Shown one piece after another: positions 12,068-14,547 of a stretch of 39,619 nucleotides of DNA. A program made the translations under genes and the position numbers. Below the pieces are notes generated by a model, which did not search any database, had not been told where the DNA came from, and was given only the letters and a program-made list of their open reading frames with translations. Every line of letters starts with the position of its first letter. Position 1 is the first letter of the stretch. The stretch is from Bacteroidota bacterium (GTDB taxonomy: Bacteria > Bacteroidota > Bacteroidia > Bacteroidales > Prolixibacteraceae). Where the stretch lies: the NCBI GenBank assembly GCA_023251435.1, contig JAHEYU010000058.1:1-39619 (forward strand), given 5' to 3'.

Positions 12068-12157
12068 GAATCTTAATAAATTCCCAACAAACAAATCGTG
12101 TATTACTATTTAAGTTAGGTTTCCCACGGATTTGTTATATACTTGTAACGCCAATTT

Positions 12158-12285
12158 ATACCAATTGTATTTATATTTTAGTCCAAAGACAAAATATAAA
12201 TTACAATGGTTAATGCCGATGCTACATGAATATAGTACAATAAGACGAAGTCGCAATTGGACTATTATGAATGTGCAATCGGTAT
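12158..12285. repeat. Structured repeat, copy A (upstream of GH42 gene)
   Basis: A 128-bp element bounded by ATACCAATTG (12158-12167) and CAATCGGTAT (12276-12285), which are inverted at 9 of 10 positions. Inner blocks AGTCCAAAGAC (12180-12190) and TTGGACT (12257-12263) lie exactly 22 bp from each end and are also inverted. The 29-bp ends match at 21 positions. The left half forms a long stem (12161-12179 with 12191-12209, one bulge) with AGTCCAAAGAC as its 11-nt loop. AATGCCGATG (12212-12221) can pair with the right terminus. Copy B shares the plan. It ends 27 bp before the GH42 start codon. Confidence 0.75.
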
Positions 12286-12312
12286 TATTAAACAAATCTA
12301 ATTTAACGAGTT

Positions 12313-14415
12313 ATGTACAAATCCGTATTTTCAATTAAAAAGCAGCTCATTCTGGGTTTAACCGGAATAGTTTTGAGCTTTAATTCTTTTGCTATTAATC
12401 CTGAAAAGTTTTTTCCGGCGAAAGAACTAAACACGGTTGGGGTTTACTATTATCCCGAACACTGGGATTCTACCCAATGGGAGCGCGACTTTAAGAACAT
12501 GGCAAAAATGGGTTTCGAATTTACCCACTTTGCCGAATTTGCGTGGGCACAGCTTGAACCTGCGGAAGGCAAATACGATTTCAAATGGTTAGATAGATCA
12601 TTGCAACTGGCCGCGAAGTACAACCTGAAGGTGATTTTGTGTACTTCAACCGCTACTCCGCCGGTTTGGCTGGTTCGCAAGCATCCTGAAGTGCTGGCAA
12701 CAGACGAAGGCGGTTCGCAGATGGATCACGGCAGCAGACAGCACGCCACTTTTTCGAGCAATTATTATCGCCAGTATTCGATGAAAATGATCGAAGAACT
12801 TGCAAAACGATACGGAAAAGATAAACGTGTAATTGGCTGGCAGCTTGACAATGAACCACGCCGTTTTCTGGATTACGGAAAAGATGCACCACAGCGTTTC
12901 CGCGATTGGTTGAAACAAAAATACACCACCATCGATGCCGTTAATAAAGTATGGGGAACTAACTTCTGGAGTGGAACTTATACCGATTTTCAGGAAATAA
13001 ATATACCGCTTCACAAGCAATGGGGGATGAATTTGCACCAAAGGCTCGACCATTATCGTTTTTCTGACGAAGAAACGGCTTCGTTTCTCGACGAACAAGC
13101 CCGCGTACTCCGGAAATATACATCAGCCGACCAGTACATTACATCTAATTATATCCCGATGTACGACGTTGGTTACATTGGTATGAGCAAAGAACTTGAT
13201 TTTGAAACTTATACCCGGTATTTGGTTTACGGTGGAGATCGTGGTATCGGTCCAAAAGGTTACCGTGTTGGCGAATATTCGCGCATAGCAATGGCCAACG
13301 ATTTTTTCCGTCCGCTGAAAGGTATTTATGGTATTATGGAACTTCAGCCCGGTCAGGTAAATTGGGGAAGCATTAATCCTCAGCCGCTTCCGGGAGCAAT
13401 GCGACTTTGGTTGTGGCATGTGTTTGCCGGAGGTAGCAAACTTACCTGTACTTATCGTTACCGTGCGCCACTTTACGGTTACGAAGCTTATCACTACGGA
13501 ATTGTGGGTACCGATGGATTGACTCCAACTCCTGGAGGGTTGGAATTCAGCCAGTTTATTCAGGATATAAACAAATTGCGTAAGAATTACGATGCGAAAG
13601 CACAACTTCCAAAATCTTACCTTCAGCGCAAAACCGGAATACTATTTAATTCTGATAATGTACAGGCAATTAACCTGAATAAACAAACCACCGAATGGAA
13701 TACTGAAGGCCATTTCCTTAAATATTACAAAGCCTTGAAATCGTTTGGCGCTCCGGTCGATTTTGTGCGCGATACTACCAATTTTGCAAATTATCCGGTT
13801 TTGGTGGTTCCGGCTTACCAGATGATTGATCAGCAAATGATTGATAAACTAACCCGTTATGCTGAAAATGGCGGAAACCTGGTGATGACGACCCGCACCG
13901 GACTTCAGGACAGGAACGGACATTTATGGGAAGCTAAATTTGCGCAGCCCATCTGGAAGCTGATTGGCGCCGAGCTTGAATCGTATGATTTGCTAATGCC
14001 ACATTCTCCTGATAAAATTCGTTTCAACAATCAGGATTACACCTGGACCAGTTGGGGCGATTTACTGAAACCGAACACAGGAACTGAAACCTGGGCAACT
14101 TTCGAAGGTGATTTTTATGCCGGAACATCAGCAGTAATTTCGCGCAAACTGGGCAAAGGAACTGTAACTTACATAGGAGTTGATTCCCGCTCGGGTGATC
14201 TGGAAAAACAGGTTTTGACTAAACTGTACTCACAGCAAGGCATTCAGGTTGAGAATTATCCCGAAGGAGTGATGGTTGATTACCGCGATGGGTTTGGTAT
14301 TGCGGTGAATTATTCCGATAAGGTGTACGAAATGAACTTGCCCGCCAATGCCGAAATAATGGTTGGAACCAAAGCGATGAAAACCGCTGATGTGCTGGTT
14401 TGGAAAGTTAAATAA
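12313..14415 (+). CDS. Secreted GH42 beta-galactosidase
   Basis: A 700-residue enzyme with a signal peptide (residues 1-27, ending FNSFA). The GH42 fold starts with TVGVYYYPEHW (41-51) and FTHFAEFAWAQLEP. The acid/base is E181 in GWQLDNEPRR; the nucleophile candidate is E343 in IMELQPGQVNWG. A trimerisation-like domain follows from about residue 430, and a short C-terminal beta domain ends the protein. GH42 enzymes cleave terminal beta-galactosides, often from galactan or galacto-oligosaccharides; here in the periplasm or outside the cell. No SusC/SusD or regulator is adjacent. Copies of one structured repeat sit 27 bp before the start and from the last base of the stop codon, so the gene is exactly bracketed. 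A weak TATACTTG box lies at 12138-12145. Confidence 0.92.
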   Translation: MYKSVFSIKKQLILGLTGIVLSFNSFAINPEKFFPAKELNTVGVYYYPEHWDSTQWERDFKNMAKMGFEFTHFAEFAWAQLEPAEGKYDFKWLDRSLQLAAKYNLKVILCTSTATPPVWLVRKHPEVLATDEGGSQMDHGSRQHATFSSNYYRQYSMKMIEELAKRYGKDKRVIGWQLDNEPRRFLDYGKDAPQRFRDWLKQKYTTIDAVNKVWGTNFWSGTYTDFQEINIPLHKQWGMNLHQRLDHYRFSDEETASFLDEQARVLRKYTSADQYITSNYIPMYDVGYIGMSKELDFETYTRYLVYGGDRGIGPKGYRVGEYSRIAMANDFFRPLKGIYGIMELQPGQVNWGSINPQPLPGAMRLWLWHVFAGGSKLTCTYRYRAPLYGYEAYHYGIVGTDGLTPTPGGLEFSQFIQDINKLRKNYDAKAQLPKSYLQRKTGILFNSDNVQAINLNKQTTEWNTEGHFLKYYKALKSFGAPVDFVRDTTNFANYPVLVVPAYQMIDQQMIDKLTRYAENGGNLVMTTRTGLQDRNGHLWEAKFAQPIWKLIGAELESYDLLMPHSPDKIRFNNQDYTWTSWGDLLKPNTGTETWATFEGDFYAGTSAVISRKLGKGTVTYIGVDSRSGDLEKQVLTKLYSQQGIQVENYPEGVMVDYRDGFGIAVNYSDKVYEMNLPANAEIMVGTKAMKTADVLVWKVK

Positions 14416-14532
14416 TACCAAATGCAATTCCAAACCAGTCCAAAGACCCATCTGGTATAATGCCGATGAATAGAAATGTTAAGGCCAATCGAGTTTGCGA
14501 AGATTGGACTGTTATATTTCTTCAATCGGTAT
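14415..14532. repeat. Structured repeat, copy B (downstream of GH42 gene)
   Basis: A 118-bp element in the same orientation as copy A: ATACCAAATG (14415-14424), AGTCCAAAGAC (14437-14447), AATGCCGATG (14459-14468), TTGGACT (14504-14510) and CAATCGGTAT (14523-14532). The inner blocks are again exactly 22 bp from each end. The 29-bp ends match as inverted repeats at 19 positions. An 8-bp stem with one G-U pair (14460-14467 with 14525-14532) and CCAATC/GATTGG are possible. It fills nearly all the space between the convergent GH42 and gate-protein genes. Confidence 0.75.
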
Positions 14533-14544
14533 AATACCAAATGC
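14531..14544. repeat. 14-bp direct repeat next to copy B
   Basis: ATAATACCAAATGC occurs at 14412-14425, spanning the GH42 stop and the left end of copy B, and again at 14531-14544, directly overlapping the right end of copy B. The second copy looks like the left tip of another element unit, cut off by the end of the convergent gene. Confidence 0.6.
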
Positions 14545-14547
14545 GGT

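Follow-up and report, generated by a model that had tools for sequence, protein, structure and literature searches.

The GH42 locus and its two repeats

The window analysed here is a stretch of 39,619 nucleotides from a genome of the Prolixibacteraceae (Bacteroidota), in which a gene for a GH42 beta-galactosidase, standing in the order CstA-GH42-Gate, is bracketed by two copies, A and B, of a short repeat. The features of the locus are as follows.

12138..12145, + strand: TATACTTG, conserved promoter-like box of GH42, kept upstream of GH42 in relatives (promoter role putative)
12156..12158, + strand: left target duplication of copy A, TTA (flank comparison)
12159..12284, + strand: core of copy A, subfamily A, 126 bp, TACC...GGTA (sequence, BLAST, covariance model, flanks)
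12159..12210, + strand: hairpin 1 of copy A, with AGTCCAA in the loop (predicted fold)
12211..12213, + strand: TAA spacer joining hairpins 1 and 2 of copy A (sequence, predicted fold)
12214..12284, + strand: hairpin 2 of copy A, TGCCGATG...CAATCGGTA (predicted fold)
12285..12287, + strand: right target duplication of copy A, TTA (flank comparison)
12313..14415, + strand: GH42 beta-galactosidase gene, 700 aa (Pfam PF02449, PF08532, PF08533; same locus in relatives)
14413..14415, + strand: left target duplication of copy B, TAA, which is the GH42 stop codon (flank comparison)
14416..14531, + strand: core of copy B, subfamily B, 116 bp, TACC...GGTA (sequence, BLAST, covariance model, flanks)
14416..14457, + strand: hairpin 1 of copy B, weak (predicted fold)
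14458..14460, + strand: TAA spacer joining hairpins 1 and 2 of copy B (sequence, predicted fold)
14461..14531, + strand: hairpin 2 of copy B (predicted fold)
14532..14534, + strand: right target duplication of copy B, TAA (flank comparison)
14535..14544, + strand: TACCAAATGC, apparent left-end relic of a second element in tandem (sequence; left-end match at 14532-14546 with 2 mismatches)

The core boundaries of both copies were set from the flanking target duplications. The initial annotation had placed two repeats here in the same orientation, with shared blocks in the same order, and this was confirmed, as was the position of the inner AGTCCAA and TTGGACT blocks, 22 bp from each ATACCA/GGTAT end in both copies. 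The span it gave for copy B begins at 14415, the last base both of the GH42 stop and of the left duplication. Pfam scans, which covered 18 of the 40 listed ORFs, agreed with its statement that no transposase lies in the window. Its description of each copy as an imperfect inverted repeat was right as regards the ends; the + strand, however, is predicted to fold into two side-by-side hairpins and not into one long hairpin. Rfam gave no match in the window at the gathering score. Copy A is of one subfamily (A) and copy B of another (B), and their target triplets differ as well (TTA and TAA), so that the two are independent insertions.

Removal of the copy A core together with one TTA gave a leader that aligned with those of eight relatives, out of 20 other GH42 places, and in all eight the site was unoccupied, with a single TTA; G009 and G014 retained TATACTTGTAACGCCAATTTATTAAAC ungapped, while the other six differed by a few bases or small gaps. 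Judged from these alignments, copy A went into a TTA early in the GH42 leader, its target duplication lying 10 bp downstream of the conserved TATACTTG, which resembles the Bacteroidota -7 box. Copy A probably adds 129 bp to the leader, presuming that the insert is transcribed.

Copy B lies where the GH42 and Gate genes converge, filling the gap between them, and appears to have split the GH42 stop codon TAA, yet with a stop retained, and it is for this reason that the bracketing of the gene looks so precise. In G015, 125 bp separate the GH42 stop from GTTCAGG, a stretch in which two hairpins were discerned by eye and of which the part holding the second gave a folding z of -2.75. The window is without a 125-bp stretch of this type, and has copy B, the TAA and the 10-bp relic TACCAAATGC in its place. 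The right flank of copy B differs from G015, leaving no clean unoccupied site, and the likely history is that two elements stood in tandem and a deletion came afterwards.

A stop codon was duplicated exactly by 8 of 81 copies (93 distinct copies, 12 of them too near a locus edge). For a test against expectation, 66 of the 93 copies were kept (dropped were the 12 at edges, nine not at TWA sites, five within ORFs and one without a neighbour), and the expectation was drawn from TWA sites in the same intergenic stretches, genes being defined as mechanical ORFs of at least 80 aa. Six of the 66 had inserted in stop codons at TWA sites where 5.33 were expected (P=0.43), and because of this agreement stop-codon insertion is to be regarded as ordinary for the element, just as its TWA preference predicts.

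The cassette proposal itself, i.e., that GH42 was moved by the repeats or captured between them in the manner of a composite transposon or of integron attC sites, had in its favour that two copies in the same orientation tightly bracket one gene, and the initial annotation had named the comparison that would decide it, that of the same locus in relatives. At E<=1e-100, there were 21 places with GH42 homologues, spread over 18 of the 23 genus genomes, and a profile search of these loci (flanks of up to 1.5 kb on each side, several shortened by contig ends, and the G014 and G007 matches partial) found elements only at the window's own, with none at the 20 others. The order CstA-GH42-Gate was present in G015, at 92-93% identity, with GH42 in place and neither repeat beside it, and CstA and GH42 were adjacent in G011, G004 and G014 without copy A. 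The remaining GH42 loci had no CstA or Gate match in the flanks fetched, so GH42 also occurs in other surroundings within the genus, though again without these repeats. Together with the differing subfamilies and triplets of the two copies, and the restoration of the relatives' leader once copy A and one TTA are taken out, these loci leave the cassette proposal next to no credit, and by its own test it fails. On this comparative evidence GH42 is a resident gene and not cargo. An integron attC cassette was likewise set aside, since GH42 is in place without the repeats and no integrase was found among the 18 window proteins scanned.

Dispersal of the family and its target duplications

The initial annotation had suggested that the repeats be sought in the source genome by BLAST and with a covariance model. 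In that genome (G000; 5.73 Mb, 148 contigs), BLAST with copy A gave 17 matches, eight of them full-length or nearly so, including the window's own; copy B gave 43, and a covariance model built from 25 copies gave 54 at E<=0.01, some of which are the two parts of a single copy split by a nested insert, so that the repeats are multicopy and not a product of chance. Across 41 genomes, BLAST with copy B was positive in 13, its own included, all of one genus, and an exact search with the central pattern in a collection of named genomes returned 51 stretches, all from Bacteroidota records, with three genomes titled Prolixibacteraceae. Order-wide, the covariance model matched 13 of 198 genomes and 13 of 151 genera, the window's own included, a genome count that is likely too low, the filters used there being stricter. 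It gave 18 matches in G077 (the number scored) and 16 in G143, and at least 16 apiece in three genomes, each from a different genus. Copies were examined from nine of the 12 other positive genomes (G046, G175 and G220 were left out): TACC...GGTA elements were seen in eight, seven of which had at least one equal target triplet, and two places in G169, without left end and without duplication, may be unrelated. Neither copy B nor the central pattern was matched in collections of phage, plasmid and viral sequences, from which the records nearest the window's genome may be excluded.

The element is short, dispersed and without a reading frame common to the family. A small peptide was considered, as the consensus of A and of B has a 24-codon frame running from ATGCCGATG to the TAA duplication (MPMLHEYSTIRRSRNWTIMNVQSV, MPMNRNVKANRVCEDWTVIFLQSV); it is shifted or stopped in subfamilies C and D, and because of this the shared blocks are regarded as non-coding.

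Evidence for insertion came from the flanks. Of 136 full-length copies, 107 had equal 3-bp flanks (10,000 shuffles averaged 58.5 and never exceeded 76) and the other 29 unequal ones, and the equal triplets were TTA in 69 copies, TAA in 36, and TGA and AAG in one each; at least six insertions common to two species, with the same flanks by eye, are counted twice in these totals. Three sets make up the total. The first, of 60 full-length copies (43 from the window's own genome, three of them with a nested insert, and 17 from other genus genomes), was taken from 84 places after fragments and locus-edge copies had been dropped; it had 47 equal triplets (shuffled mean 21.7, maximum 33 of 10,000), and in other registers 4 bp were equal in none of the 60 and 5 bp in one. 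The second, of 34 copies (30 from named genomes and four from genus genomes), had 27 (shuffled maximum 25); it was drawn from 41 of the 51 central-pattern stretches, the other ten being contigs already in the genus genomes, and from six fetched stretches, with partial and edge places dropped. In the third, order-wide set, 33 of the 42 triplets were equal, where shuffling gave 20.7 on average and 31 at most (54 places were fetched and 12 dropped for want of an end or flank); the margin in this set is thin because TTA dominates. The duplication is thus of fixed length, 3 bp, and of TNA form. In addition, elements lying inside copies of their own family, again with a target duplication, were found in C13, PHDU39 and PHDU14.

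Insertions of this sort, with target duplication, into an internal TTA or TAA of a same-family copy were noted at L149:7200-7382, L169:5601-5783 and L020:1465-1697. In G077, near-identical copies stand at contig ends (L236, L237, L242, L243 and L244), which points to a recent burst by which the assembly was interrupted.

Paired hairpins and their covariation

The subfamilies share TACC (TACG in G077), a junction close to TAATGCCGATG, TTGGACT and ATCGGTA, as well as AGTCCAA or ATCCAA starting 22 bp in from the preceding A, with variants occurring. Both ends carry a bipartite motif, ATACC with AGTCCAA from 22 bp in, so that the element has terminal inverted repeats (TACC...GGTA, and AGTCCAA...TTGGACT at 22 bp). 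Within subfamilies, mismatches amounted to 2.5% at motif positions against 5.9% elsewhere, a comparison that is no more than supportive, being biased by the gathering of subfamily D with a one-motif pattern. Long-range pairing of the two ends as a single hairpin was considered and rejected, since their sequence is conserved but does not covary.

The predicted fold is instead hairpin 1, a spacer TAA (or GAA, AAA) and hairpin 2, with + strand hairpin lengths of 52 and 71 nt in A and of 42 and 71 nt in B, where the ends of hairpin 1 are predicted to be open when it is folded alone and closed within the whole copy. Whole-copy folding of the + strand gave z of -7.4 for copy A and -4.2 for copy B. 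Among the representatives folded (two were skipped by the pattern of the folding script), hairpin 2 reached -16.8 kcal/mol or lower in 19 of 19. Hairpin 1 was strong, at -10.5 to -19.5 kcal/mol, in the long-form subfamilies A, G077, G143, G199 and G036, and in the short-form subfamilies (B, C, D, G168, G180, G198 and G225) it was weak, at -0.3 to -5.0 kcal/mol.

In an alignment of 25 sequences (23 picked from 65, plus two A copies), 92.4% of the cells paired, against 28-45% in slid controls, and the covariation score was 0.149 versus 0.089 when shuffled. Order-wide, hairpin 2 was 91.9% paired with a score of 0.173 versus 0.082, in 13 of 19 sequences (left out were two near another D copy and four whose hairpin 2 is short or long), and the long-form hairpin 1, in the 8 long-form sequences of the 19, showed two-sided changes at 9 of its 19 pairs, and on none of the five measures did a shuffle score as high. 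None of 500 shuffles attained the covariation score in any of the three alignments, and slid controls stayed below it. The number of pairs changed on both sides was equalled by 16 of 500 shuffles for the 25 sequences and by 73 for the order-wide hairpin 2, and that of further pair types by 26 and 353, respectively; as the shuffles ignore relatedness, independent changes are fewer than the cells. In G077, the end base C4 has become G and its hairpin-1 partner has changed along with it, the right end still being GGTA, so that hairpin 1 retained its pairing at the expense of end-to-end symmetry.

Such folds bring up a structured RNA selected by the host (a terminator, attenuator or mRNA stabiliser) and spread by gene conversion in place of transposition. 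Favourable to it are the stability of the folds, the covariation between subfamilies, the standing of copy B where G015 has other hairpins, and a preponderance of G-T over A-C cells in the mixed alignment (69 vs 5); however, 47 of the 69 G-T cells came from two columns, with the structure folded on that same strand, and within subfamilies, at Watson-Crick consensus pairs, the G-T excess (40 vs 28 columns, p=0.18) was not significant, and for these two reasons no RNA function is claimed. There was also no Rfam match, and a terminator scan found no terminator-like site at copy A or B. The orientation to neighbouring genes was mixed (among 81 copies, 21 convergent, 13 divergent, 30 codirectional and 17 other), and the target duplications and unoccupied site need an insertion step, all of which makes the host-selected RNA an improbable explanation. 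Within subfamilies, many changes were unpaired and there was no significant strand-specific rescue; these unpaired changes in resident copies, together with the mixed orientation, fit a pairing that is selected in the lineages that move and not in each resident copy.

The mobile element and comparable systems

The family is best read as a structured MITE moved by a putative DDE transposase. With a probability that we put at roughly 0.88, the repeats beside GH42 are two insertions of such a non-autonomous, transposase-dependent element, present in several Bacteroidales genera, and MITE-like mobility, which the initial annotation had proposed, is well supported by the many copies, the inverted-repeat-like ends, the 3-bp target duplication and the unoccupied site. 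A DDE transposase acting in trans would recognise the bipartite ends and cut the target TWA with a 3-bp stagger, leaving the duplication; copy A went into the GH42 leader just downstream of the conserved promoter-like box, and copy B would have gone into the TAA stop codon, the stop being kept and the hairpins of the G015 type gone from that place.

Searches for the partner were negative: DDE_Tnp_1 (PF01609) gave two matches in the window's own genome, without matching ends, and 30 places in five carrier genomes, none with element-like ends, and DDE_Tnp_4 (PF13359) gave no match in the own genome. Exact end motifs 0.5-4 kb apart in the fetched loci delimited no long element, only separate copies paired in C13 (one place in two overlapping loci). 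In L198 and L199, a pair TTA-TACC...GGTA-TTA around DDE_Tnp_1 was dismissed as chance, its ends sharing 14 of 30 bases and being without AGTCCAA. Two carrier loci (L205:3-1234 and L206:869-2127) have DDE_Tnp_1 between inverted ends (GTACATGAC... and ATTTWACTAARTACATGA) with TTA or TAA on both sides, and are candidates for ordinary IS elements with the same target triplet and other ends.

The other half of the initial proposal, a REPIN-like element, was not supported. REP/REPIN units, moved by the RAYT (a Y1 tyrosine transposase), are like the present repeat in being short, palindromic, mostly intergenic and multicopy, with two hairpins per unit. Y1 transposition, however, is not known to make a 3-bp target duplication, and cores of 116-136 bp with bipartite conserved ends also speak against REPINs. 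PMC3733652 names a GTAG/CGTC tag for REPs, and this tetranucleotide tag is not a conserved block in the element alignment. Movement by a RAYT was therefore judged very unlikely.

A variant of the preferred reading, possible but rather doubtful, is that the hairpins are themselves the mobile substrate, with a transposase that reads folded or cruciform DNA and yet makes a 3-bp TWA duplication. The folded substrate would then consist of two palindromes side by side, with a TACC/TGCC-type end and a TAA as the bounds of each; at the internal end TGCC is usual in place of TACC, which may keep hairpin 2 from separate excision. Hairpin recognition is known from single-strand transposases, and such an element, if real, would join it with staggered double-strand insertion.

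Among known systems, RUP, NEMIS and ERIC target TA. The review PMC10969869 portrays bacterial MITEs as short and non-coding, as a rule intergenic, and imperfectly palindromic with direct repeats, their transcripts being such as would fold. The element resembles Correia/NEMIS, RUP, ERIC, Nezha and BrickBuilt of P. gingivalis in these respects, but differs from them in its 3-bp TWA duplication, its covarying hairpins joined by TAA, its sequence and the lack of a partner IS among those found. ERIC, the 127-bp enterobacterial repeat, is of almost equal length and is also an intergenic imperfect palindrome, but its sequence, target and phylum are other. A TNA duplication marks the IS1031 group of the IS5 family, and TWA is that of PIF. 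For PIF, a 3-bp target duplication is recorded in PMC2213677. The likeness to IS5/IS1031 and to PIF-Harbinger (with its Tourist MITEs) is one of target only, no DDE_Tnp_1 or DDE_Tnp_4 with TACC ends having been found in the genomes searched.

No earlier description of the repeat was met in the literature searched (titles and abstract openings, with subscription journals mostly outside). The MITE as a kind is known; what is new is the combination of covarying hairpins joined by TAA, bipartite ends, TWA duplication and order-wide spread without a known partner. The element can alter leaders, stop codons and gene ends, and the clear TWA target rule makes its insertions easy to recognise. Its covarying hairpins raise the testable question of why paired arms are kept in a transposase-dependent MITE, and the locus carries a warning that neat bracketing of a gene by repeats need not mean a cassette, stop codons being natural targets of an element that prefers TAA.

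Several odd copies were also observed. In L002-L007, L023, L025, L035, L038 and L045, short palindromes (TCCCGATTAATCGGGA, TCCCGATTATTTATCGGGA) replace a few hairpin bases, like nested palindromic elements, and seem to have moved with the element, because target duplications are retained in the copies that carry them. At L098 (C28:114055-114098), L094 (C48:18785-18828) and L103 (C103:3521-3571), hairpin 1 occurs as a fragment (TACCA...TGGTA) with no hairpin 2, which may represent either decay or an independent half-element. In L039 (G000:C58:6850-6966), hairpin 2 has its tip in inverted orientation when compared with the remaining B copies listed, as would be expected if a hairpin or cruciform had been cut and rejoined. 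Finally, another repeat, some 300-340 bp long and bounded by CTACCGTGTACCCACA...TGTGGGTACACGGTAG, was seen by eye at one site inside several B-type elements of G000 (C25:13600-14090, C25:21400-21910, C30:2865-3339, C13:11267-11721 and C39:26612 onward; loci L048, L046, L047 and L051), apparently in the opposite orientation in C39, and at that site other copies have a short palindrome, CCTGCCCGCAGCAGGCGGG, that by eye looks like its emptied tip.
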